A program made the translations under genes and the position numbers. Below the pieces are notes generated by a model, which worked only from the letters and a program-made list of their open reading frames with translations, had not been told where the DNA came from and did no database searches. From NCBI GenBank assembly GCA_903933805.1, contig CAIZLM010000202.1:1-48269 (forward strand): a DNA stretch of 48,269 nucleotides. Direction: 5' to 3'. This document shows positions 1,025 through 47,993 of this stretch, in pieces; position 1 is the stretch's first letter, and each line of letters opens with the position of its first letter. Origin of the DNA: an uncultured Bacteroidota bacterium. Its GTDB lineage: Bacteria > Bacteroidota > Bacteroidia > Chitinophagales > Saprospiraceae.

Positions 1025-1144
1025 GTAACTGGTTACCGTGGTCGCGTCTGAGACTTTAATGCAGGCCATAACATTTTGCTACGATAAAAACCGAGCAGAA
1101 AATGGGGCTTTGGGGGCCGGACAGCGTGCCACCCAAGCAGTTAC
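1025..1144. mobile_element. IS66-like MITE, degenerate intermediate-length copy
   Basis: Left end GTAACTGGTTACCGTGGTCG, followed by the family body GCGTCTGAGAC. Right end is GGACAGCGTGCCACC followed by AAGCAGTTAC, close to the family right end CTAACCAGTTAC. The interior (about 120 bp in total) has diverged from the standard 163-bp form. The flanking octamers GATGTTTT and ATAAAACG do not match, so this is probably an old copy. It lies between the divergent genes at 205 and 1394. Confidence 0.7.
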
Positions 1145-1350
1145 ATAAAACGATAGCATAACAGGTGTTTTATACAATTGTTTTATGAAAACACATCATC
1201 CGGTAAATTACCAAACTGATATTCGGTGTGCTTTTCGGGTTTGATATCGTTACGCCATGTTGATGCACGTCCCCAGGGGTGGGAAATCTAAAATGGAGTG
1301 GTCAGTTGCGCCCATGATACCTATCATACTCCGTGATCAAACGGCAACCA

Positions 1351-1375
1351 TACATTTGCACAGTGAATATTCACT
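1351..1375 (+). promoter_or_regulatory. Promoter with overlapping 14-bp palindromic operator
   Basis: TACATTTG (1351-1358) fits the Bacteroidota -7 consensus TAnnTTTG. It is followed at once by AGTGAATATTCACT (1362-1375), a perfect 14-bp palindrome covering the expected transcription start. Palindromes of the TGAATATTCA type at start sites are typical of TetR-family repressor sites; that part is inference. It controls the membrane gene starting at 1394. No regulator gene is nearby. Confidence 0.55.
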
Positions 1376-1393
1376 AACTCAAATGATTGGGAA

Positions 1394-1804
1394 ATGATTG
1401 GGAAAAACAACATTGCAATTGGCTTTTTGACGATGGGCTTTTTTATGGCTTACGGATTTCTATTAATTTACCTCCGTGATTTTGCCCCCGGCAAAGAAGA
1501 CTGGGTCAATTCATACAGTATCGGCAAACATTTTGAGGCAAGGCTTGCTCATGTTCACGGCAACTTATTTGCCTTTTTAAATATCCTGATTGGCTACTTA
1601 CTCCTGCATTTTAGAGACCAGCTTAGAAATGTAAAAATCATCTCTAGGTTAGCTTTAACAGGGTTGTTAATGCCCATTGGTATTTTGTCGGAAGTGTATT
1701 TTGGATTACCTCCTGTCTTAGTATTGATTGGAGCCATTGCGATGTCAACATCCGTAATTTGGATGGGAATATCTTTCTCAAAGATGAAAATAACAAGAAA
1801 ATAA
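1394..1804 (+). CDS. Small four-helix membrane protein, function unknown
   Basis: 136 residues with four predicted membrane segments at about 6-27, 53-73, 83-104 and 107-129. The second carries the pattern AHVHGNLFAFLNILIGYLL, with His and Asn residues that could face a pocket; this loosely resembles small four-helix membrane isomerases of the styrene-oxide isomerase/hydroxylaminobenzene mutase type, but I do not claim that identity. The start at 1394 is the second of two near-identical ATGATTGGGAAA repeats; the first ATG (1383) hits a stop after four codons. The gene is monocistronic behind a palindromic operator (1362-1375), which suggests it is induced by a ligand. Confidence 0.7.
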   Translation: MIGKNNIAIGFLTMGFFMAYGFLLIYLRDFAPGKEDWVNSYSIGKHFEARLAHVHGNLFAFLNILIGYLLLHFRDQLRNVKIISRLALTGLLMPIGILSEVYFGLPPVLVLIGAIAMSTSVIWMGISFSKMKITRK

Positions 1805-2181
1805 CTCCTGATATTGCAGAAAGACAATTTGAAATGCAACTGGTTAGCGCGGTCGTAACTGAGACTTCCGTTGTTGATTTGTGTCTTGCTGAACGGCTGG
1901 GGTCAGAAAAAAAGGGCTTCCGCGTAACACACAGAAACCTTCACAAAAAATCAATTTCCAGTAAAGTACGACCAGAGGCCTTTGTAGTGGGGCTCCCCTA
2001 CTACTGATGCCTGTTTTAAGCGTTGCCCACTTGGTGGAGGAACACGCGGATCCGGAGGATCTTCATGCCAAGTCCAAAAGATTCGTGCAGGCACAAACGA
2101 CACCAGCTTGCTCGGGGTTGGGCATACACTATACTTCCTGTAAACGCGGCCAGCTGCGCCATACCTACGCACAAAACTGCA
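1805..2181. other. Gene-free stretch with a MITE left-end remnant
   Basis: At 1836-1865 the sequence GCAACTGGTTAGCGCGGTCG followed by TAACTGAGAC is a recognisable but mutated left end of the MITE family. A further patch near 1893-1917 (GGGTCAGAAAAAAAGGGC) may be the decayed middle of a long-form copy, but no right end is visible. The rest has several overlapping short open frames on both strands, none with a recognisable protein or upstream signals. I see no gene here. Confidence 0.45.
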
Positions 2182-2904
2182 TCACACTTTCGAGAAAACC
2201 CGAAAATATTGAAGCGGAATTTTGTCTTCAAAAAAAGCTTTTCCAACAATGGCTCCGGCACAACCAATCGCATTGAGCGCCTCTAAGTCTGCTACACTGC
2301 TGACGCCTCCGCTCGCCACCAAACGTATATCCGGAAACTGCTTGACGATGTCGCGGTAAAGGGCCAATGCAGGGCCGCTCAATTCACCATCCCGCTCAAT
2401 ATCCGTCACCGATACCTGACGGATGCCCATTTGGTGCATTTTGGTCAAAAAATCAAAAATGCTGACACTGGTTTGCTCCACCCAACCATGGACGGCTATT
2501 TGTCGGTCACGCACATCTGCGCCAACCAAAAAACGCTCCGATCCAAATTTTTCTACCCAAGCACTGAACTCATCCTGCGCCAACAATGCCACACTTCCGA
2601 CAGAGAAAAGCATGGCTCCGGCATCCCACACTTGTTTGAGGGAGGGTATCGAACGCAAACCACCACCGTAATCAATTTGTAAACGGGTGCGCGCCGCTAC
2701 TTCAGCCAAGATATGAAGGTTGGCAGGCCGCCCACTGCGGGCGCCATCCAAATCAACCATGTGCAAACGACGAATACCCGCTGCTTCCAGCTCCTGCGCC
2801 AACTCCAATGGAGATGCATCATATTCCGTTTTTTGTTCAAAATCACCCTGACGCAAACGCACAAGTTTGCCATCCAATAAGTCGAAAGAAGGAATTATAT
2901 CCAT
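2182..2904 (-). CDS. hisA: HisA, phosphoribosylformimino-5-aminoimidazole carboxamide ribotide isomerase
   Basis: A cytoplasmic TIM-barrel enzyme of histidine synthesis that performs the Amadori rearrangement of ProFAR to PRFAR. At 240 residues the length is standard. The first catalytic Asp is D8 in PSFDLLDGKLVRLRQGD and the second D130 in VGADVRD; phosphate-binding loops are DYGGGLRS (about 78-85) and ASGGVSS in the C-terminal half, and TDIERDGELSG lies at 167-177. The first motif is PSFD rather than the more usual PAID, a mild variation. No other his gene is adjacent, so hisA is separated from the rest of the pathway here. A TATTTTTG promoter box lies 39-46 bases upstream of the start. Confidence 0.93.
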   Translation of the reverse strand: MDIIPSFDLLDGKLVRLRQGDFEQKTEYDASPLELAQELEAAGIRRLHMVDLDGARSGRPANLHILAEVAARTRLQIDYGGGLRSIPSLKQVWDAGAMLFSVGSVALLAQDEFSAWVEKFGSERFLVGADVRDRQIAVHGWVEQTSVSIFDFLTKMHQMGIRQVSVTDIERDGELSGPALALYRDIVKQFPDIRLVASGGVSSVADLEALNAIGCAGAIVGKAFFEDKIPLQYFRVFSKV

Positions 2905-2942
2905 ATCAAAATTTTAAGTCCTAAACAAATTATCCTTGTTTG

Positions 2943-2950
2943 CAAAAATA
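2943..2950 (-). promoter_or_regulatory. hisA promoter -7 box
   Basis: The minus strand reads TATTTTTG followed by C, matching the Bacteroidota -7 element TAnnTTTG. Transcription would start near 2936 and leave a leader of about 32 nt before the hisA ATG at 2904. No convincing -33 box is visible. Confidence 0.5.
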
Positions 2951-2985
2951 GTCAATTTGCCCATCTGAAGCGCACAGAAAATTAC

Positions 2986-3117
2986 GTTGCTCAAGTTAGG
3001 TGGTCGCGTCTGAGACCAAAAAGTGGCCGTTTCCTATCAGATCAAGCAGGTTTTTGCAGACCGAATCAGCGCTTCAGTCAAAAAAATAGGAGCAGTATGG
3101 CGGTAAATAAACCCAAA
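2986..3117. mobile_element. IS66-like MITE, degenerate long-form copy
   Basis: From 2995 the sequence GTTAGGTGGTCGCGTCTGAG is the family's left body, followed by a recognisable long-form middle (GCAGGTTTTTGCAGACCG, then AGCGCTTCAGTCAAAAAAAT and AGTATGGCGG). The outer left bases (GTTGCTCAAGTTAGG) and the right end (after about 3105) are heavily mutated, so the limits are approximate. It lies between hisA and the terminator of the metalloprotease gene. Confidence 0.65.
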
Positions 3118-3143
3118 AGGGTGATGGTATTTCCTACAAACGG

Positions 3144-3189
3144 CAAAAATAGAAAGCACCGGGCGCAAAATACAGCGTCCGGTGCTTTC
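3144..3189 (-). terminator. Intrinsic terminator of the metalloprotease-like gene
   Basis: GAAAGCACCGG (3152-3162) pairs perfectly with CCGGTGCTTTC (3179-3189). On the minus strand the stem is followed by TATTTTTG (3144-3151). It lies 24 bases after the stop codon at 3213, as expected of a Rho-independent terminator. Confidence 0.75.
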
Positions 3190-3212
3190 CGTCAGTTACG
3201 AAACCGCAACCA

Positions 3213-6200
3213 TTATTGCGCCACCAATACTTTTACGGTTTTTTGCTGCTCATTTTCCAAGGAGACCGCATAAACACCCTTCGGCATCTGACTGATGTCC
3301 ATACGCAAAGTATAAGACCCCGTCGGCATCTGCCAAGTACCCAATACCTGACCGGCTACATTGACCAACGAAACCTGTGCATCCGCCGTCAACGGCTGGC
3401 GCAATGACAATACAGCCACTGAACTGGCCGGGTTGGGCGACAAATCAAAGTCAACCAAAACACGGGGCTCATGGGTTCCCACCGCAAAAGGCTGCACCAC
3501 AAACACGCCATGCACCAACCCACCTTCGCCATCGGTTACGGAAAAACTAAATTTATCCTGACCGAGATTCAAACCAAAATCATAATAACGAAGTCCACCA
3601 CTGCTGATGTCTGCTTGGGTATATTGACTGCCAATTTCCACGACTACCCCATTCACCAACAATTGTCCATGGGTCGGAAGGCTCATCAAGGTGTATCGAA
3701 GGTCTGTTGGAGCGGTATTGGGATCTTCCGCTTTCAATAAATTGTCACCAATGGACGCGTTGGTGCCGGGCGCCAGCGTCAATGGGTTGTTGGTAACAAG
3801 CAACGGCGGATTGAGCGCAACGCTGGAGCAAATCTCCAACTCAAAGGCAACCAATGTGCCACCGGAACTAACTTGATTGTCCTTGACCCGGAGTGTCCAA
3901 ATACCTGCTGAGGATTGGCCGTTAAGAGCGCTCAATGGCGTAGCGGGCTTATAAGCCGCGCCCGTGTTGGGCGGTGGGCAGTTAAACGGCCCTGTAGCGC
4001 CATCGTCTATCCCAATGTTGAAATTGCCATTGTAGCCGGAACACTTGTCTTTCCACAACAACACGTCCGTGCCGGATGGGCCAATCAGGTGCACTTCCAG
4101 GTCTTTGAAGAATGAGTGGGTTCCCTGTATTTTTTTAATGTTTACATCACTGATGGCGCCACCGGTAGCCAAGGTGATTTTTGACTCAACGGTCGGCGTA
4201 CCATTGGCCGTTATATTCTTGGGTACATCTCCAGCCTCATGGGTGGCACAACTTTGAACCGCTACCACAAACACCTGAACATCAGACCAAGCCGCTTCTC
4301 CACAGTCATTTTTTGGCCGTACTCGCCAGTAATACACACTTCCTTCTTGCAAGACAACCGGCACCTGAAAACTGTCAACAACAATGTTTTGCTTGGCTGC
4401 AACCAATACAGCCGGTAAGAATGACGGATTGGTGGCCACTTCAACATCATATTGGTTGGCGTCGGGTATGGTATTCCAATACAGCGGGGGCTGCTGGTTC
4501 ACGCCGGCAGCGCCATTGATTGGCGAGGTCGGTGCAAAAGCTGAAAAATCATTGTTTACCACCGTCAAGGTCACGATGGAAGCAGCCGCAACAGCCCCTG
4601 AATTGCCTTGTATCGTGAGATCAAAGGTGCCTTCTGGAGCGTTGGCGGGAAATGAAACGGTCATAACGGTGCTGACACCGGGCTGCACGGGATTCGGACT
4701 GAAGGTTGCCGTTGTGCCATTGGGCAAACCAGCAGCGGTAAGTGTGATGGGATCCGTAAAACCGCCCAAGGAGGTGGTGCTGATCTGTGCGGTAAAATCA
4801 GCCGGGAGACAAGCATAGTCCTTCGACAATGCAGAACACAGCGAAAACGATGGCGTTGGTTGCTCTATGGCAAACTTTGAATTTGAAATATCAAAGAAGA
4901 CGTTGTCCGCCGCTTCCACCCGAATACGGTTGTTGGGGCCTACGTTATCGGGTACCTGGATACAATATTTCCCAGTATTTGGCACACCTGAAGCCAAGGT
5001 GATCGGAAAATCCGTTCCGTTGTTGGTGCTAAGTTTAATATGAACAGTTTTAGCGTTGACCGGCGCATTGTTGGTGTTGGCAACATCCCATACAATGGTT
5101 TGAAATTCACCCACCTTCCATTTAATATTGACTGTATTGGGGTAGGTTACGAGAAATGGTCCCGCAAGACTTGTTGCCCTAAGCTCCACGGTATCCCAAG
5201 TAACGCCGCCACCACTAGGCTTGTTGTCGCGTGCGACAAAGGCAAATGTGATATCGCGGTTGTAGGTAGGAAGAACCTCGGTAATGCTGTTGGCATTCGC
5301 AACCACAGTCTGAATTCGGGGAAAAGAACGCGTCGGGTTGGTTGTGGGTTCGTACCACCGAAAAAGCGGTGAGTTGCCGGAAGGGCTTCCCAATGGACTG
5401 GTCGGACCAAGGTCAATCTCGTCCCAACTGTATGTCATAGCATCTCCATCAGGGTCAACCGCCGAACCAGTCAATTCAAACGGCGTACTGATCGGAATAA
5501 ACGTCACCGGGGCATACGGGGTAGTCGCCATCGGAGCAGTGTTGGTGGTCGTTTGGATACTGCCACAGGTGGCACCCTCCTCAAATTCATAAAAACGGCG
5601 AATCTCTGCGATGGAGCAAGCGTGATAAAACAGCGCCGTTCCGCCACCGCCAATATTGTTGGAGCCACAAGCGCCATTGTAGGACATAATGGTGCTGCCA
5701 CTTCCCGGCTCACAAGCCGACTCATAGTTAAACTGACTGTCTGCGCCACATTGGTTGAATGTGTGCCCTGATCGCCACTGGTGTCCAATTTCCTGCCCTA
5801 CAATGGCAAAAAATTCGTCGCCATAGGGAGGCCCATACCATGCGGAACATCCTCGACCCTTAAACTGGGTACAACACAACCCACCAGCTACTCCAATGGC
5901 CGGGCCACCCAAGTAACGGGCAAATACGTGCCCAACGTCGTATTTGTCGGGCGAGCCCAAATTTTGAAGCATGATGGTCGGATTTTGACTCATCCAGCCA
6001 CCGACATCGGTACCGGTGTATGGGTCCGTGACCGGATCAAGGAAAATGATGTCGAAAGACTCGGCAATGAGTTGCAAACGGATATTGATGTCGCGCTCAT
6101 AAATGGCGTTCAACTGGTTTGTAAACGCAGTAAGTTTCTGAAACACCAGTTCTTTGGTGCCACCGTTGTCCTGCGAAAACTCTCCTGTAGCAGCACAAGC

Positions 6201-7639: not shown

Positions 7640-7651
7640 ACGTATGTGACG

Positions 7652-7692: not shown

Positions 7693-7769
7693 GTAACTGG
7701 TTAAGTGGTCGCGTCTGAGACAAAAAAGTGGCCTTTTTGGGCCATAAAACGTGGCACCTAACCAGTTGC
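7693..7769. mobile_element. IS66-like MITE, short form, with 7/8 target duplication
   Basis: 77 bp from GTAACTGGTTAAGTGGTCG to CACCTAACCAGTTGC, with the family body GCGTCTGAGACAAAAAAGTG. It is flanked by TTGACTTT (7685-7692) and TTGGCTTT (7770-7777), direct octamers that differ at one position. It lies between two minus-strand genes, directly upstream of the LysE-family promoter. Confidence 0.85.
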
Positions 7770-14373: not shown

Positions 14374-17367
14374 ATGGCAATTAAACTTATCAAGGTAGCA
14401 AAGGAATTAAACGTCGGGCTTCACACCATTGTGGAGACCTTACACAGCAAGGGTTTCCCTGGCGTGGAAGAAAAACCGACGGCTGACATCAGCGACGAAA
14501 TGTTGCTCGTGCTCCAAAAAGAGTTCCAAAAAGACCTGGCTATCAAACAGGAAGCGGACAAACTTGCCCGCCCAACCCTAAAAAAGGAACCTGTAACAGG
14601 CACTGTAAATGTTCCAGCTCCAGCCCCACCCCCAATACCGGTGCCTGCTCCTCCTGCCCCTGCTCCTCCTGCACCGGTAGTCGCCCGCCCTTCTTTGTTG
14701 CCGCCTCGGGAGTCGGTAACAGTAACACCCGCGGAAGCACCACCAGCAGTAGCGCCCCCAAAAAAGGATGAACCTTTCCAAATACCCCGCGAACGCTCCG
14801 CGCTTCGCGTTGTCGGAAAAATAGACCTGGACAAACAGAAAAGAAGCACCACGCCGCCGCCAGCACCGGAAGCACCCAAACCAACATCCGCTGCTCGTAA
14901 AGAACCACCTGCTGTTGCGAAAAAAATCGAGCCTCCGATTAAAGAAAAAAAGGAGCCCATCGTAGAAATTAAACCAATACCTCCAGAGCCCGTCAAGCCT
15001 GCTGTCGTCGAGGCGCCACCTGCAGACGAACTCATGCGTGCAGACACCCCAACCTTGCGCGGATTGAAAATATTGGGCAAAATTAGCCTCGAAAAACCAA
15101 GGGTCGCATCCAGCAACAACAACCGAAATGCCGGAAACAACCAAGGCCGCCCCGAACGTGGCGGCAGACGCGATGACCGCGGAGGTACTCAAGGCGGACC
15201 AGGTAACCGTACACAATCAGGACCAGGTAATAGAAACCCCCAAGGCGGACCAGGAGGCCCAAGGCCAGCAACACCTGCCGGCGGCGCAACCACGCAGTCA
15301 GCAGCCGATGACGCCAACCGACACAAACGCAAAAGAAGAAAAGTCCAACAACCCGTCACCGCTGAATCCTTGCAAACTTCTATCGCCAACAACCAAGGCG
15401 AGAAAAAAGGCAGGGGACGCGTGGATGGTACCAAAGAGGTATCCCAAAAAGATATCGAAAATCAAATCCGCCAAACAATGGCCCGTTTGGGCGCCGGCGC
15501 CAGTCGTAAACGACAGAAAATCCGACGCGATAAACGCGATGTGATGCGCGAACGCGCTGAAAAAGCAGAAATCGCCCGCACAGAAAGTGATAAAGTCCTC
15601 CAAGTAACAGAGTTTATCTCTGTATCCGATCTTGCATCCCTGATGGATGTCCGCCCAGCAGATGTCATCAAAGCCTGCATGACGCTGGGTATCTTCGTTT
15701 CCATCAACCAACGCCTCGATGCCGAAATCATCGAAGTCGTGGCCAGTGAATTCGGATTCCAAGTGCAATTCATCTCCGCCGAAGAACAGGTGGAGGTCGA
15801 AGAGGAAGTGTACGATGACCCTACTGACCTGAAAGCCCGCCAACCCATTGTCACGGTCATGGGCCACGTCGATCACGGTAAAACTTCGCTACTCGACTTT
15901 ATCCGATCTGCCAATGTGGCCAGCGGTGAAGCCGGGGGTATCACCCAACACATCGGCGCCTATGAAGTGCCCGTCGGAGAAAATAACGATAAGATTACAT
16001 TCCTCGATACGCCCGGTCACGAAGCCTTTACTGCTATGCGTGCAAGGGGCGCCAAAGTGACCGATATCGCCATCATCGTGATCGCTGCCGATGACAGTAT
16101 TATGCCCCAAACAAGGGAGGCCATCAGCCACGCCCAAGCAGCAGGTGTGCCGTTGGTGTTCGCCATCAATAAAATCGATAAGGCAGGCGCCGACCCAGAA
16201 CGCATCAAAAACGAACTGGCGCAAATGAACCTGCTCGTGGAAGAATGGGGCGGAAAATACCAAAGCCAAGATATTTCAGCCAAAAAAGGCATTAACGTGG
16301 ATAAACTCCTCGAAAAAGTGCTGCTGGAAGCCGAACTGCTGGAACTGAAAGCCAATCCAAAACGCCGTGCAGTCGGGACGGTGCTGGAAGCCTCTCTCGA
16401 AAAAGGATTGGGATACGTCGCCAAAATCCTGATCGAAAACGGTACCATCAACAATGGTGACCCCATCATCGCAGGTGAATACGCCGGAAGGGTGAAAGCG
16501 CTCTTCAATGAACGCGGTAAAAAAGTGAAAAGCGCCGGCCCTGCTCAACCAGTAATGGTCCTCGGCTTGCCAGGCGCTCCTCAAGCTGGTGAAAAAATTA
16601 AAGTAGCCGCGTCTGACAGTGAAGCAAAAGAAATTGCCAGCAAACGCGGTCAAATTATCCGAGAACAGGCCAACCGAGCCAATAAGCGTATCTCGCTCGA
16701 AGAAATCGGCCGCCGACTCGCATTGGGTAATTTCAAAGAACTCAAACTCATCGTCAAAGGCGACGTGGATGGTTCTATTGAAGCCCTTACCGACTCGCTG
16801 ATCAAGCTCTCGATGGAAAAAATTCAGGTCAATGTTATTCACAAAGCCGTAGGGCAAATTGTGGACAGTGACGTGATGCTCGCATCCGCTTCCGATGCCA
16901 TCATCATCGGATTCCAGGTACGCCCATCGCTGACGGCACGTAAACTTGCAGAAAAAGAGGGCGTAGAAATCAAACTCTATTCCATCATCTACGAGGCCAT
17001 CGAAGAAATCAAGGCCGCCATGGAGGGTATGTTGGAGCCTACCAAAGAAGAGGAAATCATGGGCCAAGTGGAAATTCGTGAGGTGTACAAAATTTCCAAA
17101 GTGGGTACCGTGGCAGGTTGTATTGTCCAGGAAGGTAAAGTTAGCCGAAACCACTACATCCGTATTATCCGCGATGGTATTGTGGTGTACCCAGCCAACA
17201 GCAACCAAAACGCTGAACTTGCCTCGCTCAAACGATTCAAGGAAGACGTTAAAGAAGTGAAAACTGGCATGGAATGCGGTATCACCATCAAGAATTTCAA
17301 TGATATCAAGATGGGTGACGTAATCGAATCTTACGTGGTCAATGAAGTGAAAACCAAGTTGTCCTAG
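14374..17367 (+). CDS. infB: InfB, translation initiation factor IF-2
   Basis: 997 residues. IF-2 is a GTPase that places fMet-tRNA on the 30S subunit and promotes subunit joining. Domains: N-terminal IF2_N helix bundle (about 1-55); a Pro/Ala- then Gly/Arg/Asn-rich low-complexity linker (about 70-340); a second IF2_N-like segment near 400-470; the G domain with G1 GHVDHGKT (497-504), G3 DTPGH (545-549), G4 NKID (599-602) and G5 SAK (635-637); then domains II, III and IV, ending in the fMet-tRNA-binding C-terminus. The long variable linker is normal for Bacteroidota. It is the last gene of the operon, followed by a strong terminator. Confidence 0.97.
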
Positions 17368-17447: not shown

Positions 17448-17525
17448 GTAACTGGTTAGCGTGGTCGCGTCTGAGACAAAAAAGAGGCCATTTTTTGCCA
17501 GACAGCGTGCCACCTAACCAGTTAC
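17448..17525. mobile_element. IS66-like MITE, short form, at the stop codon of the LysM gene
   Basis: 78 bp, GTAACTGGTTAGCGTGGTCG to CACCTAACCAGTTAC. Flanking octamers are TATCGCTA (17440-17447) and TAGCGCTA (17526-17533), a 7/8 match. The right-hand octamer contains the stop codon (minus-strand TAG, 17531-17533) of the LysM protein gene. It lies between convergent genes. Confidence 0.9.
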
Positions 17526-19069: not shown

Positions 19070-19152
19070 AGCAGAATAGTTGTGGATGTATGGGGGTATT
19101 TTATGTAGCGATCGCGACACATCCCCATTAACCCATGGTGGTGAAAATTTAT

Positions 19153-19230
19153 GTAGCTGGTTAAGTGGTCGCATCTGAGACAAAAAGGTGGGCCTTTGTG
19201 AGCCCGACCGTACGCCACCTAACCAGCTAC
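19153..19230. mobile_element. IS66-like MITE, short form, with perfect 8-bp duplication
   Basis: 78 bp. The left end is GTAGCTGGTTAAGTGGTCG and the right end CACCTAACCAGCTAC: both termini carry G/C where the family has A/T, a matched change. It is flanked by AAATTTAT at 19145-19152 and 19231-19238, identical on both sides. It lies in the divergent gap between the LysM gene and surE. Confidence 0.92.
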
Positions 19231-19241
19231 AAATTTATACG

Positions 19242-19319
19242 GTAACTGGTTAGCATGGTCGCGTCTGAGACAAAAAAGTCGTCATTTTTTGCCAGACAGC
19301 GCGCCGTCTAACCAGTTAC
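19242..19319. mobile_element. IS66-like MITE, short form, second of a tandem pair
   Basis: 78 bp, GTAACTGGTTAGCATGGTCG to CGTCTAACCAGTTAC. Flanking octamers TTTATACG (19234-19241) and TTGATACA (19320-19327) agree at 6 of 8 positions. Its left octamer overlaps the right octamer of the copy at 19153-19230. Confidence 0.88.
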
Positions 19320-25013: not shown

Positions 25014-25088
25014 GTAATTGGTTAGGCAGTCGCGTCTGAGACGAAAAATGGGCTTTTTTGGGCCAGATTGCGTGCCACCTATCCAGTT
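25014..25088. mobile_element. IS66-like MITE, short form, with imperfect duplication
   Basis: About 75 bp, from GTAATTGGTTAGGCAGTCG to CACCTATCCAGTT. Flanks are ACATTTCA (25006-25013) and TCATTTCA (25089-25096), 7 of 8 matching; the last two terminal bases appear lost or absorbed. It lies between divergent dprA and the SH3-domain gene. Confidence 0.8.
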
Positions 25089-25162
25089 TCATTTCAAATA
25101 TAAGGGTTTAATATCGTTTAGGTGGCGCAGTATTACCTTACGCCATAAATTTTTCTGCTTCC

Positions 25163-31600: not shown

Positions 31601-31741
31601 GTAACTCGTTAGATGGCCGTGCCTGAGACAAAAAAATGGATATTTTTTTGTCTCAGGCACGGCTTTTTGCACGCTGTAGCAGCGCCAATCTCAAACAAAT
31701 AGGCCTTTTTTGGCCAGACAGCGCGCGACCTAGCCAGTTGC
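31601..31741. mobile_element. IS66-like MITE, rearranged copy with a perfect internal hairpin
   Basis: 141 bp. Left end GTAACTCGTTAGATGGCCG, right end GCGACCTAGCCAGTTGC. The interior contains a self-complementary block (31616-31663) not found in the other copies. Flanking octamers CCCTTCAT (31593-31600) and CTTTTTAT (31742-31749) agree at 5 of 8, all differences being C/T transitions. The minus-strand gene yhhN ends inside its right end. Confidence 0.8.
31616..31668. terminator. 22-bp perfect hairpin with T-run inside a MITE, after lgt
   Basis: The arms 31616-31637 and 31642-31663 are fully complementary, with a 4-nt loop GGAT; TTTTT follows at 31664-31668. It lies 55 bases after the lgt stop and would end lgt transcripts. 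It arose within a mobile element. Confidence 0.7.
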
Positions 31742-39771: not shown

Positions 39772-39783
39772 GTAACTGGTTAC
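39772..39783. repeat. Solo 12-bp MITE terminus
   Basis: GTAACTGGTTAC is the family's left terminus joined directly to its right terminus (GTAAC/GTTAC inverted repeat), 11 bases before a full long copy. It may be the scar of a deletion between the two ends. Confidence 0.5.
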
Positions 39784-39794
39784 CTTTATTTATC

Positions 39795-39957
39795 GTAACT
39801 GGTTAGCGTGGTCGCGTCTGAGACAAAAAAGTTGCCATTTTTTGCCAGACGAAGCAGATTTTTGTAGGCCATAGCAGCGCTATGGTCAAAAAAATCTGCG
39901 AATTATGGCGGAAGATGGACCTTTTTGGGCCAGACAGCGTGCCACCTAACCCGTTAC
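39795..39957. mobile_element. IS66-like MITE, long form
   Basis: 163 bp, GTAACTGGTTAGCGTGGTCG to CACCTAACCCGTTAC. The middle contains the internal stem CCATAGC/GCTATGG inside GCAGATTTTT.../AAAAAATCTGC. The flanks TATTTATC and AAAAAATA do not match, so no target duplication is seen. It lies 14 bases before the alpha-galactosidase-like ATG. Confidence 0.88.
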
Positions 39958-42155: not shown

Positions 42156-42222
42156 GGACTCTTGACCGACAAAAGATGAAAAATGGGTCGTTTTTGACCC
42201 GGCAAAAAACACCCAAAATACG

Positions 42223-42678
42223 CTATGCCTTCAAACGAGACCCATACAATTCCACCCATTGTGATACACTGAGCTTTTGCATCAATTGTCCAATCAATTC
42301 GTACGGTATATCCGACATCTTTTTAAACCGGATACAACTTTTTCCCATGTCTAATTTGCCCTTGCTGTGGTGGGGATATTCGCCCACAAACCATTCAAGC
42401 AGCCCGGAATCTAAGTAGATCCCCATGTGATAAAGTGAAATAAAATTTTTCTGCGCCGCAATACTGACAAATGGCAAGGGGAGTTTCGGATCACAGTGGT
42501 ATCCTGCCGGATAAATCTCGTGTGGCACCGAGTACCCAATCATTCCATAGCCCATTGCTTCCTTGTATCCTGTAGGAATGTTGTCCAAAATGGTTTTGCG
42601 CAGTTTTTCAAAAGCCGCTCGGCGTACTTCGTCCACTGCGTTGACGTATTCGTCAGGTGTAGAAATTTGGTTTTTCAT
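42223..42678 (-). CDS. DUF1801 (YdhG-like) family protein
   Basis: 151 residues. The pattern VDEVRRAAFEKLRKTILDNI, then EAMGYGMIGYSVP, PFVSIAAQKNFISLYHMGIY and FKKMSDIPYELIGQLM fits the DUF1801/YdhG superfamily, small cytoplasmic alpha/beta proteins, some annotated as iron chaperones (frataxin-like fold) without firm proof. It is 43 bases upstream of the end of the ABC permease gene on the same strand. Confidence 0.85.
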   Translation of the reverse strand: MKNQISTPDEYVNAVDEVRRAAFEKLRKTILDNIPTGYKEAMGYGMIGYSVPHEIYPAGYHCDPKLPLPFVSIAAQKNFISLYHMGIYLDSGLLEWFVGEYPHHSKGKLDMGKSCIRFKKMSDIPYELIGQLMQKLSVSQWVELYGSRLKA

Positions 42679-42712
42679 AACTGACCGTTTTATTTCGTAT
42701 AGCGTAGCTGGT

Positions 42713-42721
42713 TGGGTTTAT
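42713..42721. repeat. Possible solo MITE terminus
   Basis: GTAGCTGGTTGGG begins here and matches the left terminus seen in the copy at 19153, but no body or second end follows. It abuts the stop codon (42722-42724) of the permease gene. A short match; it may be chance. Confidence 0.3.
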
Positions 42722-43909
42722 TCATCCTTTTACATCGAGTGCATCGCGAAGGCCATTGCCCACCAAATTGAATGCCAACACCATCAGCGCAATCGCAATC
42801 GCAGGAGCCAATGCAAGCAGCGGCTTACCACTGATGGCGTAGCCATAATTTTCATTCAGCATAGAACCCCAGGAAGGTGTTGGTGGTTGTACCCCAAAAC
42901 CCAGGTAGCTCAAGCCTGATTCAACCAAAATGGCGGTTGCGAAATTACCCGCCGCTAACACCAGCACAGGACCTAATAAATTGGGAAGGATGTGACGCCT
43001 TAATATACGCCAGTGACCAAAACCCATGCTCTGTGCAGCCTCTACAAAAGGCAAAGAACGCAAAGAGAGCGTCTGGCCACGCACCATCCTAGCAACATCT
43101 ACCCACATCGTAAGCCCCACGGCCAAAAAGATGATGCCCACCCCACGACCAAGCGCCATCACAATGGCAAAAACCAACAACAACGTGGGAATTGACCACG
43201 CCGTGTTGATTAGCAACAACACAACTTCATCCAATTTCCCCCCAAAATAGCCGCCCACAAGACCCAAAAAAAGCCCAATAGTGAGTGAAATAAACACCGA
43301 AATCAGCCCAACCAACAACGAAACCCTACATCCCAACAACAAACGACTGTAGTTACACCGACCATACTTATCCGTGCCCAACACAAAATATCGGCTGCTG
43401 ACAACCATCCCTTTTTTTATATTATCCACCAAATGCGCTTTGGAAATGCGCTGTACCAAACCTGTCGCATCCTTGAAAATATACGCCGTTGTATCCGTGA
43501 TAAGTTCCTCGAAAACAGGAAAAAACAGTTGCAATACGTGTACACTGCCCTGCTGACCCACGTCCCCTATGGGTTGAAAATAAACAGAATCTCGTTCCAA
43601 ACGAAGTGAACCTGGGACAATGGGAATCAACAAATCCGTCACCGGACGACCAGAAATGAGCAGTGAAGCGTAAGAAACAGGCTGTACCCAACGGTTTAAT
43701 TTAACAGACAAGAGTTGCGCCCGCGCGCCCGGAGCCGTGAGCGCCAAGGACGGTATCTGCGTGTTGGCATCAGGTGCTTGATCGGGTGACAACCCATAGC
43801 CAAAAATAGCCACCAATATTGACAACAAGACAAAGGACAGTCCTGCAAACGCCGGCCGGTTGCGACGGAAACGCTGCCAGGCTTTTTGAAATTCCGTTGG
43901 TTCAGACAC
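42722..43909 (-). CDS. Peptide ABC transporter permease (DppC/OppC-like)
   Basis: 395 residues. The first membrane helix (about 17-38) starts an OppC_N region; a periplasmic insertion of roughly 140 residues (about 45-180) follows, then LGTDKYGRCNYSRLLLGCRV (about 178-197), five more helices and the ABC-contact EAA-type loop EAAQSMGFGHWRILRRHILP. It should pass peptides or nickel-type ligands across the inner membrane together with a DppB-like partner, ATPases and a binding protein, none of which lies in this window. The large insertion is common in Bacteroidota homologues. Confidence 0.9.
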   Translation of the reverse strand: MSEPTEFQKAWQRFRRNRPAFAGLSFVLLSILVAIFGYGLSPDQAPDANTQIPSLALTAPGARAQLLSVKLNRWVQPVSYASLLISGRPVTDLLIPIVPGSLRLERDSVYFQPIGDVGQQGSVHVLQLFFPVFEELITDTTAYIFKDATGLVQRISKAHLVDNIKKGMVVSSRYFVLGTDKYGRCNYSRLLLGCRVSLLVGLISVFISLTIGLFLGLVGGYFGGKLDEVVLLLINTAWSIPTLLLVFAIVMALGRGVGIIFLAVGLTMWVDVARMVRGQTLSLRSLPFVEAAQSMGFGHWRILRRHILPNLLGPVLVLAAGNFATAILVESGLSYLGFGVQPPTPSWGSMLNENYGYAISGKPLLALAPAIAIALMVLAFNLVGNGLRDALDVKG

Positions 43910-43951
43910 AGCGCTGTAGTTTCATAGTTGTTTTCGTAAAAATAAAAACCC

Positions 43952-44048
43952 GTAACCAGTTAGGTGGTCGCGTCTCCGACAAAAAAGTGGCTATTTCTTG
44001 CAGACGAAGCAGATTTTTGCAGGCCGTAGCAGCGTTACGGTCAGAAAT
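43952..44048. mobile_element. IS66-like MITE, long form truncated at the right
   Basis: About 97 bp: GTAACCAGTTAGGTGGTCGC, then GTCTCCGACAAAAAAGTGGC and the long-form middle GAAGCAGATTTTTGCAGGCC, GTAGCAGCGTTACGGTC. The right half is missing; the sequence stops seven bases before the stop codon of the WecA/TagO-type gene (44055). Confidence 0.8.
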
Positions 44049-44054
44049 ATACCC

Positions 44055-45104
44055 CTAAATAGGAACAGACTTGTTTTTTATCACGCTGAGCGCCAACGAC
44101 AATGCCAATGACATAACCAGCTCCAAACCCAACAGCTTCTCAGTACCCAAAAAGTGGAGGGATGCAATCGTAACAACGAATACTACGTTGATGGCAATCA
44201 ACGACAGTGTTGTTTGGGTGTGCGTGAAACCCAACCGTAAAAATTTGTGGTGAATATGGTCGTGATCAGGATAAAATGGTGATTTACCCTGTGACATTCT
44301 TCGTATAAAAGAACTGAAAGTATCATAAATCGGAAGTATCAACACCGCTATCACAATGGCCGGTGTACCGTGCATCAAAAATGGACTTTCAGGCGTTAAT
44401 TTATGACTGATCTCAATAAAATTGATGCCCAAAACAGAACAGACCGTACCAATCAACAGCGAACCGGTATCGCCCATGAAAATTCGCGCAGGGGTGAAAT
44501 TATACTTTAAAAAAGCAATAATTGAACCAGCCAATGAAAAAGCCAACATCGAAAAAGCCTGTGCTCCCACCACAAAAAACCATGTACCAAAGATTAGACA
44601 GTTAAGTAGGCCAATGCTCCCAGCCAAACCGTTGATGCCGTCTATCAAGTTAAATGCATTGATAACACCAACAATGATGATGACAGAAAAAATGAACCCT
44701 GTCAATTCCGGTATTTTTTCAATACCAAAAACACCATAAAGACTTGTAATTTGGGTGTTGGCCTTATAGACGATAATCACTGATACCAACAACTGCGCTG
44801 TAAATTTTTTGGCCGGTGAAATCGGCGCTAAATCGTCTAATATTCCCAGTAGAAAAATAAGCACGAACGGCGCCAACAGGTATTGAAGCATCCAAAAACT
44901 CTGGACGGGGGTCCACAACACAATGGCGCAAACCGTGCCGGCAAACAAACCAACCCCTCCCAATGAAGGTGTTGGCTCTTTATGAGAACTCCTTGAATTG
45001 GGGTTGTCAAATATCCCTCGCTCCTTCACAACCCTGATGATAACCGGTATGATAGAGTAAGTTAATATGAAAGCTGTAATAAAAGACAACATCAATGCGT
45101 ACAT
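44055..45104 (-). CDS. WecA/TagO-type undecaprenyl-phosphate glycosyl-1-phosphate transferase
   Basis: 349 residues with about ten or eleven membrane helices. The family motifs are all present: GILDDLAPISPAKKFTAQLL (about 87-106, the Mg-binding DD), NAFNLIDGINGLAGSIG (about 148-164), FMGDTGSLLIG (about 209-219) and the HDHIHHKFLRLG motif near 285. The enzyme transfers a sugar-1-phosphate, usually GlcNAc or GalNAc, from its UDP-sugar onto undecaprenyl phosphate, starting O-antigen, capsule or wall-polymer chains. It lies alone; no glycan cluster is in the window. MITE fragments flank both sides. Confidence 0.92.
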   Translation of the reverse strand: MYALMLSFITAFILTYSIIPVIIRVVKERGIFDNPNSRSSHKEPTPSLGGVGLFAGTVCAIVLWTPVQSFWMLQYLLAPFVLIFLLGILDDLAPISPAKKFTAQLLVSVIIVYKANTQITSLYGVFGIEKIPELTGFIFSVIIIVGVINAFNLIDGINGLAGSIGLLNCLIFGTWFFVVGAQAFSMLAFSLAGSIIAFLKYNFTPARIFMGDTGSLLIGTVCSVLGINFIEISHKLTPESPFLMHGTPAIVIAVLILPIYDTFSSFIRRMSQGKSPFYPDHDHIHHKFLRLGFTHTQTTLSLIAINVVFVVTIASLHFLGTEKLLGLELVMSLALSLALSVIKNKSVPI

Positions 45105-45205
45105 AGACCCCAGTTGGTGCGCAATAACAAATCAAAATAACTGCCCTGTCAACGATTACTTCGCGATAATGACAAAACAAAAAACGGTTCCGATATTCAA
45201 AAAGC

Positions 45206-45245
45206 GTAACGGGTTTGGTGGTACATATTTATGGTAACTGGTTAT
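45206..45245. repeat. Two MITE left-end fragments
   Basis: GTAACGGGTTTGGTGG at 45206-45221 and GTAACTGGTTAT at 45234-45245 both match the family terminus and have the same orientation. No bodies are attached. They probably are remnants of one or two decayed copies upstream of the WecA/TagO-type gene. Confidence 0.45.
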
Positions 45246-45295
45246 GACAGTTCAGTTGTACCTACCCTGTTCAAACCAACAACCCCCATTAACGT

Positions 45296-45333
45296 ACAAG
45301 ACAGCGGAACCCCAAAAGGATACGCTGTCTTGT
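45296..45333 (-). terminator. Hairpin after the Cys-rich protein gene
   Basis: ACAAGACAGCG (45296-45306) pairs perfectly with CGCTGTCTTGT (45323-45333). It lies 22 bases beyond the stop of the minus-strand gene at 45356. There is no long T-run, so it may be a Rho-independent terminator of weak type or a protective 3' end. Confidence 0.5.
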
Positions 45334-45355
45334 CACGCTAAATGGTGTACATCAA

Positions 45356-45787
45356 TTACTGTTCTGCCTTTTTTTCGCAGGCACCTGCTGTTTTATTGGC
45401 ACAGCAAGATTTGCCTTTGGACGCAGATCCGCTTGCGCAACATGCTTTCTTTTCAGAAGCAGCACAAGAAGCAGTTTTTTTAGTCATTTCTGTTTTGTCC
45501 GTTACCAACATAGCTGGCGCAACATTCACAAAGGTGTTGGCTTTCTCATCGAATTGAACACTTACAAACTTTACGCTACCCTGAGCATCAGCTTCTTTCC
45601 GAACATAAGAAACGGATCCGTCGTCATTCTGGCGCTTTTCAAGGCTTGGATCAGCGGCAGCAACTTTAGCCATTTTACCGGCGCAGCAAGACTTGTTAGA
45701 GCCTGCAGCAGCGCTGCAAGACTGTGCACCCGCGGAGAAAATCCCAAGAGCGAGCGTGAATGCAAAGAAAAAAATCGCTTTTTTCAT
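45356..45787 (-). CDS. Small secreted Cys-rich protein with CC motifs, function unknown
   Basis: 143 residues. Signal peptide about 1-21 (MKKAIFFFAFTLALGIFSAG, then AQ). Mature protein has nine Cys, including three CC pairs in a repeated K(S/A)CCA(G/S/N) setting: NKSCCAGK (about 31-38), KKACCASG and KGKSCCANK near the C-terminus. The middle (about 45-105) is a small hydrophilic region, KRQNDDGSVSYVRKEADAQG followed by SVKFVSVQFDEKANTFVNVA. The paired cysteines could bind metal ions such as copper or zinc, or form disulfides; this is inference. A promoter box lies at 45841-45848 and a hairpin follows the gene. I do not recognise the family. Confidence 0.75.
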   Translation of the reverse strand: MKKAIFFFAFTLALGIFSAGAQSCSAAAGSNKSCCAGKMAKVAAADPSLEKRQNDDGSVSYVRKEADAQGSVKFVSVQFDEKANTFVNVAPAMLVTDKTEMTKKTASCAASEKKACCASGSASKGKSCCANKTAGACEKKAEQ

Positions 45788-45840
45788 GAGTTGTTGTTGT
45801 AATTTTTACAGTTAAAAAAAATGCTTATAAAAGCGTCAAA

Positions 45841-45848
45841 CAAAAGTA
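45841..45848 (-). promoter_or_regulatory. Promoter -7 box of the Cys-rich protein gene
   Basis: The minus strand reads TACTTTTG, fitting TAnnTTTG. It is 54 bases before the ATG at 45787, giving a leader of about 45 nt. Confidence 0.5.
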
Positions 45849-45905
45849 AAGGAAAAAAATAGCACTGCGGTAATTTTTTAAAAATCGCCAATAGCTTGCA
45901 AATTC

Positions 45906-46067
45906 GTAAGTGGTTAGCGTGGTCGCATCTGAGACAAAAAAGTGGCCATTTTTTGCCAGACGAACCGGATTTTGTAGGCCGTAGCAGCGCTTCGATCTAA
46001 AAAATCTGTTCAGTATGGCGGAAAATGGGCCTTTTGCGGCCAGACAGCGTGTCACCTAACCCGTTAC
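45906..46067. mobile_element. IS66-like MITE, long form, with perfect 8-bp duplication at a stop codon
   Basis: 162 bp, GTAAGTGGTTAGCGTGGTCG to CACCTAACCCGTTAC. It is flanked by GCAAATTC at 45898-45905 and 46068-46075, identical. The right octamer ends directly at the stop codon (46076-46078) of the CtpA-type protease gene. Confidence 0.93.
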
Positions 46068-46075
46068 GCAAATTC

Positions 46076-47704
46076 TTATTTTCCGGACAATATTGATTTG
46101 TACCGGGCACCGTCGTTCAACAGTTTGATCGCCTCCTTCACCTCCGGATCATTCACCAAGTTTTTGCGAACTTTCCCGCGTTGAAAATAATACCGTCCCA
46201 CTATTTCCTGTTCAATTTCATGCAATATCCGGTCTTTGTTCCGTTCCAATTCGCCTTTTTTCTCCGATTTTATCTTGTTTTCTACGCCGGCAATTTCCAC
46301 CTCCAACGGAAGTTTTTCACGCACAACGATTTCCCTGAGTTCCTGTAACTTTTTCTCCGCAGGGGTTTGAAAATCAAATTTTTTCTCCTGTACATACTGC
46401 TTGAATCCTTCAAAATCATCAAATTCAAAGATTTCAACGGAGTCTATCTTCGGGTGATTCAAGGCAAACGCCGTCGCGTAATCAAAAATAATATTTTGAT
46501 CAAGCAAGGCGCGCACCACACCCTCCGCAGTATCATGGGGCAATAATACATCTGGCTTTATCCCTCCACCATCAAGCACCACCCGCCCGTTGCGGGTCTT
46601 GAACTGGGCGCGCTCCGATTCCGGGATGTCAACAGGAACACCATCTTTGTACCGCACCGATTGAATACAACGCCCCGACGGGATATAATATTTGGCAGTG
46701 GTCAGTTTTATTTTGGCATTGTAGCCTAAATCCTTGGTGTTCTGCACGAGTCCCTTGCCATAGGAACGTTGACCCATGACAACCCCGCGGTCGAGATCCT
46801 GTAGTGCGCCTGAGGTTACCTCACTGGCAGATGCGCTGTGCCTGTTCACCAATACCACCAAGGGAATCTCTTTGTCAACCGGAGGACCCTGGGTTTTGAG
46901 CGAAATATCCCATTCCGGCACCTTGCCCTTTGTAAGGGCGACCAACTCCCCCTTCGGAACAAATACATTCACCAAATCGATGGCTTCATTGAGCAACCCA
47001 CCCCCGTTTTCCCGCAAATCAAGGATAACACCCTTCAGCGCAGGGTTTTTGTCTTTCAATTTTATCACAGCCTCGGCAACATTGCTGCCCGCATCCTGGC
47101 TGAAAGTGGTAAGATTGACGTAGCCTATGTTCTCCGCCACCAAACCTGAATGGGGAACATTGGGTATATTTACCTCCCCCCGTTCAAGTGTTATTTTTAC
47201 ATCCTTGGGCGCTCCCGGCCGACGGACCATCAAATCAGTCTTGGTGCCTGGAAATCCGCGCAGAAAATCCAATACCTGCTGCTCATTTTTGCCTTTGGCA
47301 CTCTGGCCATCAATGCTGATCAACGCATCACCAACTACTAAACCGGCTTTATGGGCCGGACTATTTTCTATAATTTCGGTGATGGTGACCCAGTCGCCCA
47401 TCCGCTGTCCGGTTGCACCCACGCCGTTGTAGGTGCCATCGGTTTGAATGCGCCAACCTTCTATGTCTGTTTCTGACATATAATTGGTGAACGGATCTAA
47501 CCCCATCAGCATGGCATCCATCCCGCGCCGCATAATTTGGTTCGGGTCCAATTCGTCAACATAAGAATGATTTACTTCCCGGTACGCATTGGCAAATATT
47601 TCTAGGTTTTTTGCAATGTCAAAATATTTCCCTTGTGCTTGTGTAAGGGTCAACGATGTCAGTACCGTGAAAAAAAGAAGGAAGTTTCTGCGTCGAATAT
47701 TCAT
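46076..47704 (-). CDS. CtpA-type C-terminal processing protease (S41 family)
   Basis: 542 residues. Signal peptide about 1-23 (ending LTQAQ). A helical N-terminal region is followed by a PDZ domain (about 85-175, GVGATGQRMGDWVTITEIIE) and the S41 Ser/Lys protease core: ILDLRENGGGLLNEAIDLVN, the nucleophile region NRHSASASEV and the general base Lys in GQRSYGKGLVQ. The C-terminal helical part is charged (about 425-542). It cleaves unfolded or tagged proteins in the periplasm. Bacteroidota carry several such enzymes. The stop abuts a MITE target duplication. Confidence 0.93.
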   Translation of the reverse strand: MNIRRRNFLLFFTVLTSLTLTQAQGKYFDIAKNLEIFANAYREVNHSYVDELDPNQIMRRGMDAMLMGLDPFTNYMSETDIEGWRIQTDGTYNGVGATGQRMGDWVTITEIIENSPAHKAGLVVGDALISIDGQSAKGKNEQQVLDFLRGFPGTKTDLMVRRPGAPKDVKITLERGEVNIPNVPHSGLVAENIGYVNLTTFSQDAGSNVAEAVIKLKDKNPALKGVILDLRENGGGLLNEAIDLVNVFVPKGELVALTKGKVPEWDISLKTQGPPVDKEIPLVVLVNRHSASASEVTSGALQDLDRGVVMGQRSYGKGLVQNTKDLGYNAKIKLTTAKYYIPSGRCIQSVRYKDGVPVDIPESERAQFKTRNGRVVLDGGGIKPDVLLPHDTAEGVVRALLDQNIIFDYATAFALNHPKIDSVEIFEFDDFEGFKQYVQEKKFDFQTPAEKKLQELREIVVREKLPLEVEIAGVENKIKSEKKGELERNKDRILHEIEQEIVGRYYFQRGKVRKNLVNDPEVKEAIKLLNDGARYKSILSGK

Positions 47705-47724
47705 GTTTGTGTATGTCTTTTTTT

Positions 47725-47761
47725 GTAACCACTTGGGTGGTCGCGTCTGCTTGGTGGCTAC
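47725..47761. repeat. Internally deleted MITE remnant
   Basis: GTAACCACTTGGGTGGTCGC, then GTCTGC and TTGGTGGCTAC: a left end and a few bases of body joined to a right-end-like GTGGCTAC. It lies 11 bases left of a full long copy, in the leader region of the CtpA-type gene. Confidence 0.45.
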
Positions 47762-47772
47762 TAAAATTTTAT

Positions 47773-47935
47773 GTAACTGGTTGGCGTGGTCGCGTCTGAG
47801 ACAAAAAAGTGACCATTTTTTGCCAGACGAAGCGGATTTTTGTAGGCCGTAGCAGCGCTACGGTCAAAAAAATATGCGAAGTAGGACGGAAAATGGGCCT
47901 TTTTGGGCCAGACAGCGTGCCACCTAACCAGTTAC
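47773..47935. mobile_element. IS66-like MITE, long form, best-preserved copy with perfect 8-bp duplication
   Basis: 163 bp, GTAACTGGTTGGCGTGGTCG to CACCTAACCAGTTAC, with the body GCGTCTGAGACAAAAAAGTG and internal stem CCGTAGC/GCTACGG. It is flanked by AATTTTAT at 47765-47772 and 47936-47943, identical. It contains two GCCAGAC repeats, 85 bp apart, the points between which the short form lacks sequence. Confidence 0.95.
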
Positions 47936-47993
47936 AATTTTATACATGTTGCGCCCTCAATGGTTTAAAACCGCCCAAGGGTGTTTGAGTTCA

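Follow-up and report, generated by a model that had tools for sequence, protein, structure and literature searches.

A swarm of IS66-ended hairpin elements in a Saprospiraceae genome, with a core apparently carried within interchangeable ends

The window analyzed here, a stretch of 48,269 nucleotides from an uncultured member of the Saprospiraceae, raises the question of what the palindromic repeats scattered along it are, which enzyme moved them and where their interior came from. A sequence-only reading had listed twelve copies and taken them for a swarm of non-autonomous IS66 derivatives that insert with an 8-bp duplication. Using a both-ends search that allowed up to two mismatches per end, we found a two-ended copy at ten of the twelve positions, which bears out the swarm, whereas 2986 and 43952 mark decayed copies in which this search recognized no right end. 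The copies are as follows.

1025-1144, plus strand: internally deleted long form, two-ended, 120 bp; octamers 0/8, no duplication
2986-3113, plus strand: decayed copy with left arm and core (3026-3111, core model 52.1 bits), right end lost
7693-7769, unstranded: short form, two-ended, 77 bp; duplication 7/8
17448-17525, unstranded: short form, two-ended, 78 bp; duplication 7/8
19145-19238, unstranded: short form (19153-19230, 78 bp) between identical octamers AAATTTAT
19242-19319, unstranded: short form of 78 bp, separated by 11 bp from the preceding copy; octamers 6/8
25014-25090, unstranded: short form, 77 bp; octamers match 3/8 with the right end at its canonical place and 7/8 with an end 2 bp shorter
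31601-31741, unstranded: two-ended but diverged, 141 bp; octamer match 5/8, no clear duplication
39795-39957, plus strand: long form, 163 bp, core 39834-39919; octamers 3/8, no duplication
43952-44073, plus strand: decayed long form that retains its left end and core (28.9 bits) but has a degraded right arm
45898-46075, plus strand: long form (45906-46067, 162 bp; core 45945-46029) with identical octamers GCAAATTC
47765-47943, plus strand: long form (47773-47935, 163 bp; core 47812-47897) with identical octamers AATTTTAT

The three identical octamer pairs had been read correctly, as had the 7/8 matches at 7693 and 17448, but the one claimed at 25014 depends on the shortened right end. A separate 12-bp end fragment lies near the long form 39795-39957, at 39772-39783, and the copy at 17448-17525 folds as a single hairpin (RNA z-score -9.2).

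These copies belong to a much larger population. The exact terminal 12-mer GTAACTGGTTAG occurs 302 times forward and 295 times in reverse in the source genome, against 1 and 1 for the reversed motif, and a sample of 20.4% of the genome (856,228 bases) yielded 89 two-ended copies where the control gave 1 pair, which rules out a chance origin of the copies in the window. Their lengths fall mostly into two classes, 77-80 bp (32 of 89) and 159-166 bp (46 of 89); these 78 copies, with 12-bp ends and too short to encode a transposase, have the size expected of MITEs. In line with the intergenic or gene-end placement noted earlier, 42 of 43 copies in the first sample were not wholly within a gene predicted by a simple purpose-made gene caller, in sequence of which 81.7% was called coding; the sole exception was 7693-7769, in the 5' end of an ORF. 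No match to two exact patterns of the element was found in viral contigs, and none was found in plasmids. Tandem copies 8 bp apart occur in L008 and L093.

Such placement might suggest a host function, in which the core is a two-way terminator or a protein-binding hairpin carried along as useful or harmless; a T tract follows the hairpin on both strands of the long form, in keeping with that idea. We nevertheless regard it as quite unlikely, since convergent gene pairs are not clearly preferred: the 36 copies that have a gene on either side lie between 8 convergent, 13 divergent and 15 tandem pairs, compared with 42 convergent, 39 divergent and 169 tandem background intervals. Further, the T tract is by eye not evident in several of the other end classes described below, no Rfam family reached its gathering score anywhere in the window, and one long copy drew only three chance-level Rfam matches (E 0.91 or worse).

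The flanks of the sampled copies point to transposition. Among the 89 copies, 25 are flanked by perfect 8-bp duplications and 18 by 7/8 matches, where 0.31 perfect pairs would be expected, and 46 fall below 7/8; for each other width from 4 to 12, identical flanks were found at three copies at most. Because duplications are seen at the short and the long form alike, both must have inserted. The comparison with empty sites that had been proposed for sister strains could be made by paralogy: at L311 14431-14509, the octamer TTTGATGA is doubled in the filled copy and single in each of two uninterrupted paralogous sites, so that the 8-bp counts and this one empty-site comparison together give the element the target-site duplication of a MITE. 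The same observations weigh against REP-like sequences mobilized by a RAYT (Y1 transposase). The element resembles REP/BIME sequences in being palindromic and intergenic and in its hundreds of copies, but target duplication is not expected from the REP/RAYT mechanism, whereas we see perfect 8-bp duplications and an octamer doubled at an otherwise single-octamer site, and we consider this explanation very improbable.

Instead, ends that begin with GTAA together with an 8-bp duplication are the traits of the IS66 family, and the element has both. Elements that encode the IS66 transposase TnpC and carry the same GTAACTGGTTAG ends are present in other genomes. In G009, of the same genus, such an element is 3130 bp long and flanked by TTTTCAGA (8/8); its TnpC (NF033517, 256 bits) is cut near the C terminus by one IS1-family copy, and a second lies upstream. 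We rejected IS1 as the source of these ends, since the IS66 element contains both 772-bp IS1-family copies, which have ends and short duplications of their own. A second element, in bin KLAP184, is 1554 bp long and flanked by ATTTTTTT (8/8), with a TnpC that is 60% identical (184 bits, cut-off 180) and whose frame seems broken near the C terminus. G025 contains an internally deleted IS66 element (octamers 6/8), and the source genome itself has a transposase remnant (63% identity over residues 221-288) that terminates in the same 12-mer as the MITE. Same-ended IS66 elements, which the earlier reading had proposed to look for, are thus present in G009 and KLAP184, but an intact TnpC between GTAACTGGTTAG ends was not found among these four; metagenome bins often lose such repeats. 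Of TnpC there are three matches in the source genome, all off the contig of the window, so that the earlier statement that no transposase is encoded here holds as far as this protein is concerned. In G020 and G016, MITE ends are present and no TnpC was detected.

Further IS66 elements served for comparison. L009, used as a yardstick, has ends beginning with GTAA and the duplication CACCGGGA (8/8), and in G007 a 1471-bp element with class-3 ends (GTAAAAACTTAG) shows 8/8 duplications in four of six copies and an intact-looking TnpC of 466 aa in L123. An IS66 element with class-2 ends in the source genome, L011, shows no duplication (3/8). Two further candidates were set aside: L010 is a fragment of an L009-type element, and a junction apparently common to L093 2910 and G025 aligns only over the MITE and its AT-rich flank; the other matches spanning a copy, L098 8630 among them, were left out of account.

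Taken together, the duplications in the genome sample, the paralogous empty site and the same-ended IS66 elements uphold the reading of IS66-type ends with an 8-bp duplication and support mobilization by IS66, presumably through TnpC, and the hundreds of small hairpin elements in the genome were most likely moved by a borrowed IS66-family enzyme. It would be natural to go one step further and regard the element as an ordinary MITE, formed when an IS66 element lost internal sequence and unremarkable in its interior; its ends and duplication match IS66 elements, and MITEs with a parental IS are known, as in Cardinium (PMC9769881). Yet when the long and short MITE were compared by BLAST with the elements of G009, KLAP184 and G025 and with the remnant in the source genome, only 12-13 terminal bases were common, and the core also occurs within ends that are not of IS66 type. 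The term non-autonomous IS66 derivative is therefore too narrow, although the non-autonomous, IS66-mobilized part of it stands. Origin by deletion is not supported by these sequences, among which the immediate parent was not found, and we judge it unlikely.

The interior has a history of its own. The long form is one fold-back hairpin of ~163 bp around a central hairpin core of ~85 bp, and the 78-bp form is the long form without this central hairpin, with breakpoints in two GCCAGAC repeats. Throughout the genus, and beyond it in further genera and families of the order, hairpins homologous to the core lie within elements of 153-170 bp; in one genus, 26 of 42 genomes carry element-like copies. 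One may object that the likeness is convergence, as every core is a palindrome in which T and A tracts are conserved, and any long hairpin with such tracts might match; moreover, the model with which the core loci were found already included several end classes, and some weak matches resemble coding sequence (L186, L193, L194, and L218). Leave-one-class-out profiles, however, set the real cores apart: the left-out class scored a median of 35-65 bits, pair-preserving shuffles no more than 7.4 and reversed cores at most 2.4, and 69 of 69 cores scored above their own 40 pair-preserving shuffles. A control that flipped G and C but kept A/T pairs and pairing reached up to 44 bits, and 67 of 69 cores still beat their own 40 flips. 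In addition, core matches (1e-4, strict filters) were absent from 225 of the 248 genomes sampled within the order, and convergence appears improbable to us.

The ends around these cores differ in kind. Some belong to other IS66 subtypes (8 bp), some are IS5-like (3-bp TNA), and three further types are flanked by TA (AGTACC, GACTTG, and CACTGT). IS66-ended core elements have perfect 8-bp duplications in 4 of 12 cases, three of them in the source genome, and 7/8 in three more; those of the TNA type have an identical 3 bp in 17 of 25, and TA bounds AGTACC-type elements on both sides in 8 of 10 cases and GACTTG-type elements in 8 of 11. For the IS5-like type, G009 contains IS5-family elements with GA[CG][CT]ATGTT ends, with an IS5 transposase in L226; 13 of their 15 copies are preceded and followed by one and the same trinucleotide. 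No parent of the three TA-flanked types was present among the fetched IS630-type (PF13358, 10 genomes) and IS5-type (PF13340, 18 genomes) loci, and four genomes contained no exact pair of GACTTG-type 14-mers at IS distance.

Core and ends do not always agree, since the core of G014 is 87% identical to that of G003, which has other ends, and 69% identical to that of G000, which has the same ends. The end label is strongly clustered on the tree of cores, with 13 changes against a shuffled mean of 38.2 and a least possible number of 5; the well-supported branches alone force few end changes, with 33 of the 64 branches left open, so that end exchange was not frequent and its number is uncertain. 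Substitutions mirrored in both ends of one copy, such as the same A-to-G change at position 4 in both ends of 19153-19230, number 11 against 3.98 expected, a value as high in 3 of 5000 shuffles, although subfamily ancestry could also account for them. One decayed copy, L092 7317, has hybrid ends; the 12-mer concerned arises by chance too, with 2 matches compared with 2 for the reversed control.

We therefore favor, at roughly three chances in four, a hairpin MITE with IS66 ends whose ~85-bp core stems from an older family and has been passed between transposases. The core would be older within this order of Bacteroidota, and its occurrence in palindromes of ~160 bp with ends resembling those of other mobile systems would reflect that passage. 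We suggest that an end is newly gained on one arm and may then be copied onto the other by fold-back template switching, as in the correction of imperfect palindromes, and such arm-to-arm copying would yield a symmetric element that another transposase could move; the hairpin may assist any transposase in that it would draw the two ends to each other. More broadly, we lean towards a fold-back family of ~160 bp defined by its core, whose ends have repeatedly been exchanged in the course of the order's history, arm-to-arm copying renewing both at the same time, and which at least two unrelated transposase families move or once moved (IS66 with 8-bp and IS5 with 3-bp duplications); TA-duplicating transposases are probably also among its movers. 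Thus the core appears to be carried within interchangeable ends, by a route and with a role that we infer.

The usual definition of a MITE rests on its ends, and MITEs are seen as remnants of one parental transposon. If the above is true, a core that persists through changing ends, duplication lengths and transposases would itself be the unit of inheritance, and its capture of ends would offer a general route to the birth of new MITEs. The hairpin would also have a testable role, either in pairing the ends or in restoring symmetry after one-sided end capture, and the spread of element-like copies through the genus makes comparative genomics and transposition assays feasible. Among the literature matches listed, the titles and opening lines of abstracts mention neither this element family nor a core common to differently ended MITEs.

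Compared with known systems, the element shares with IS66 of the single-ORF type (TnpC only), which we take to be the ISBst12 group, the GTAA start, the 8-bp duplication and 12-13 terminal bases found on TnpC-encoding elements, but it is non-coding, only its ends are common and its core also occurs with non-IS66 ends. MITECca01 of Cardinium is likewise short, without a transposase gene, bounded by the ends of an IS and spread within one lineage; it has IS982 ends and keeps a short parental stretch next to the end (PMC9769881), whereas the present element has nothing but its ends in common with the IS66 elements found, and its interior recurs across end types. The Correia/NEMIS elements of Neisseria (~107 and ~155 bp) are also small MITEs of two lengths that differ by an internal segment, and they give stem-loop transcripts; exchange of ends between transposase families, as proposed here, is not described for them in the available part of that account (PMC2229807).

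Two-ended copies of the MITE, a hairpin-shaped element with IS66-like GTAA ends, are present in the window at 10 of the 12 coordinates listed by the sequence-only reading, which had described a swarm of palindromic elements there; those at 2986 and 43952 are both decayed, and the three copies said to have identical flanking octamers all do. Across the genome that holds the window (4.2 Mb in 336 contigs, the window being one entire contig), the terminal 12-mer has 302 forward and 295 reverse occurrences, vs. one each for its reversed control. A sample of 80 stretches chosen by a fixed rule plus the window (856,228 bases, 20.4%) contained 89 two-ended copies (both ends present, ≤2 mismatches per end) vs. 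1 control pair, which, scaled by proportion, would correspond to about 440 in the whole genome. These comprise 32 copies of 77–80 bp, 46 of 159–166 bp and 11 of other lengths. In the first sample, 42 of 43 copies were not fully within predicted genes, and no clear preference for convergent neighbour genes was seen.

DNA folding gave a single hairpin for the 163-bp copy (z-score −11.5). The short form is without the central part, and direct reading places the breakpoint within two GCCAGAC repeats, so it likely arose by loss of this part through recombination or slippage. Both forms have inserted, since octamers matching at ≥7/8 flank 28 of 47 long and 15 of 36 short copies (0 of 6 of intermediate length). 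Over the 89 copies, flanking octamers were identical in 25, 7/8 in 18 and below that in 46; shuffled pairings would yield 0.31 identical pairs, and no other width from 4 to 12 gave more than 3 identical copies, bearing out the proposed 8-bp duplication upon insertion. One insertion interrupts a repeat, with TTTGATGA on either side of the MITE, while two uninterrupted relatives have TTTGATGA once, and thus serve as paralogous empty sites:

L298, 11960–12040: repeat of ~80 bp, uninterrupted
L096, 13458–13537: the same repeat, uninterrupted
L311, around 14431: the same repeat, interrupted by a MITE copy at 14431–14509

No orthologous empty sites were found for MITE copies, one candidate having proved false. 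Tandem copies exactly 8 bp apart, with outer flanks unlike the spacer, occur at two loci (L008 near 1663–1671; L093 2739–3072).

The three matches to TnpC, the IS66 transposase, above the family cut-off in this genome all lack the MITE's ends (0/3):

L009: canonical IS66 element, ends unlike the MITE's, duplication 8/8
L010: IS66 fragment
L011: single-ORF IS66 element, ends GTAACTATCCAGCC, no duplication (3/8)

Two further TnpC traces are present in this genome: a remnant of 68 residues, 63% identical and bearing one 12-mer end, and a 36-residue scrap with 58% identity (L137). A scan of the genus (42 genomes) for the terminal 12-mer and TnpC revealed an element in G009 with GTAACTGGTTAG at each end. 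A 1554-bp element in the bin KLAP184 has the same ends; both enclose an IS66 TnpC (60% identical to each other) and are flanked by 8/8 duplications, in line with the earlier proposal of a non-autonomous element with IS66-type ends. In neither element does the transposase look intact: the G009 TnpC has its C terminus cut by one IS1-family copy, with a second upstream, and the KLAP184 reading frame seems to shift close to the C terminus, the model match ending at position 320 of 387. Inside the one IS66 element at the G009 locus lie two identical 772-bp IS1-family elements (L042 1374–2145 and 3510–4281); their ends are GGGTAGTGTCATTTT, and short duplications flank them. G025 has an internally deleted IS66 element with MITE-type ends (octamers 6/8) and, on a separate contig, a MITE 87% identical to that of the window genome. 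By BLAST, the MITE has exactly 12–13 terminal bases in common with these IS66 elements, and nothing in the interior. Judged from the matching ends, duplications, TnpC elements and remnants, the mobilising enzyme was most likely an IS66 TnpC that is now lost, dead or absent from the assembly.

Ends of this type also carry other cargo, as interiors look different in three elements with GTAACTGGTTAG or near-GTAACTGGTTAG ends:

L050 (G021), 1262–1435: 174-bp element
L051 (G030), 1325–1498: 174-bp element
L054 (G006), 1074–1118: 45-bp element

Contigs L043–L049 (G020, G016) stop within a repeated element with GTAACTGGTTAG ends, which suggests that IS66-type copies were lost from these assemblies.

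The long copy matched 10 of 60 genomes, its own included, and often by the interior alone because the ends differ there; on inspection, such loci have kept the interior with different ends. The core, the central hairpin, was searched for with a model of ~85 bp built from 24 sequences, under strict filters that lose weak matches. It matched 33 of 42 genomes in the genus (E 1e-3) and 23 of 248 drawn from the order (E 1e-4, own genome included). In our judgement, 26 of these 42 genus genomes hold an element-like copy at an inspected locus. The other matching genomes differ: best loci resemble coding sequence in G061, G060 and G016, the G024 match lies beside an element, not on one, and G010, G020 and G026 yielded no locus to examine. 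Outside the genus, the best locus is element-like in 21 of 22 matching genomes (L218 being the exception), from other genera of the family and two other families of the order, f12 and f11, the latter represented by one genome only. Three loci from different species genomes, L183 (G032), L184 (G007) and L187 (G024), apparently hold one element with near-identical flanks, reflecting shared insertion, transfer or cross-binning.

Core-bearing elements of 153–170 bp differ in their ends and flank duplications. The survey took in 65 elements, four with unclassified ends not being entered, and measured 62; L104, L208 and L211 did not satisfy the motif rule (L104 is 8/8 by eye).

End classes of core-bearing elements and their flanks
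GTAA (IS66 type): 8-bp duplication perfect in 4 and 7/8 in 3 of the 12 elements having both flanks
GA...TGTT: identical 3 bp in 17/25, T.A on each side in 19/25
AGTACC: TA on each side in 8/10
GACTTG: TA in 8/11
CACTGT: TA in 2/3

Three of the four perfect 8-bp duplications come from the window's genome. IS66-type ends fall into three subtypes, each paralleled by IS66 elements of the genus:

GTAACTGGTTAG: G009, described above
GTAACTATCCAG: L011
GTAAAAACTTAG: G007, six 1471-bp copies, four with 8/8 duplication

The G007 TnpC (L123, 466 aa) spans IS66 model positions 3–386 of 387. The GA...TGTT ends match those of G009 IS5-family elements in form (GA[CG][CT]ATGTT) and T.A flanks; 13 of 15 copies of these elements are flanked by identical trinucleotides. 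A search for parents of the AGTACC, GACTTG and CACTGT ends found none.

Cores of different end classes could be alike by descent or by convergence on a hairpin. The profile for each class was trained with cores from the remaining classes; 69 of 73 cores were used, omitting L184 (same location as L183), L215 and two decayed copies from the window's genome. Held-out cores scored class medians of 35–65 bits, vs. at most 7.4 bits for shuffles keeping composition and pairing, every core beating its own 40; under a harsher control (G–C flips, unpaired letters shuffled) scores reached up to 44 bits and 67 of 69 cores beat their own 40. Because the model that located these elements already included several classes, these scores carry some selection. 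Set against both controls, they make common descent the most likely origin of the cores.

The core tree, built on 85 columns, has 13 changes of end label, with a minimum of 5 and a shuffled mean of 38.2, so the label is clustered. Of its 64 branches, 33 are open, and well-supported branches force only a few label changes. One well-supported pair (100/97) joins an AGTACC-ended core with a differently ended one. G014 is a clear case of disagreement: its ends are MITE-type, yet its core is 87% identical to that of a differently ended G003 element and 69% to the window genome's core. Within G003, two element types occur whose cores are 75% identical and whose ends are unrelated.

How ends might change is hinted at within the window's genome, where mirrored substitutions in both ends of one copy numbered 11 vs. 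3.98 expected, a number as high in 3 of 5000 shuffles (the first sample half gave 6 vs. 1.7, as high in 10 of 5000). In the core, 5 of 13 pairs show compensating changes preserving pairing. Both observations are compatible with an imperfect palindrome being corrected from one arm to the other, although the mirrored ends could alternatively reflect subfamily ancestry. The hairpin may serve to pair the two ends. A single decayed element could represent a one-sided end exchange:

L092 (G000:C248), 7317 to about 7480: IS66 class-3 end GTAAAAACTTAGCC on the left, the left arm's following ~40 bases nearly unchanged, decayed MITE end on the right

The GTAAAAACTTAGCC 12-mer occurs twice in the genome sample, as does its reversed control.

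Bacterial MITEs are well known, and one with IS66-type ends alone would be a further member. Among the titles and opening abstract lines listed by literature searches, none mentioned this family or a core common to MITEs of different transposase families; the new element of the finding is a common core with interchangeable ends.
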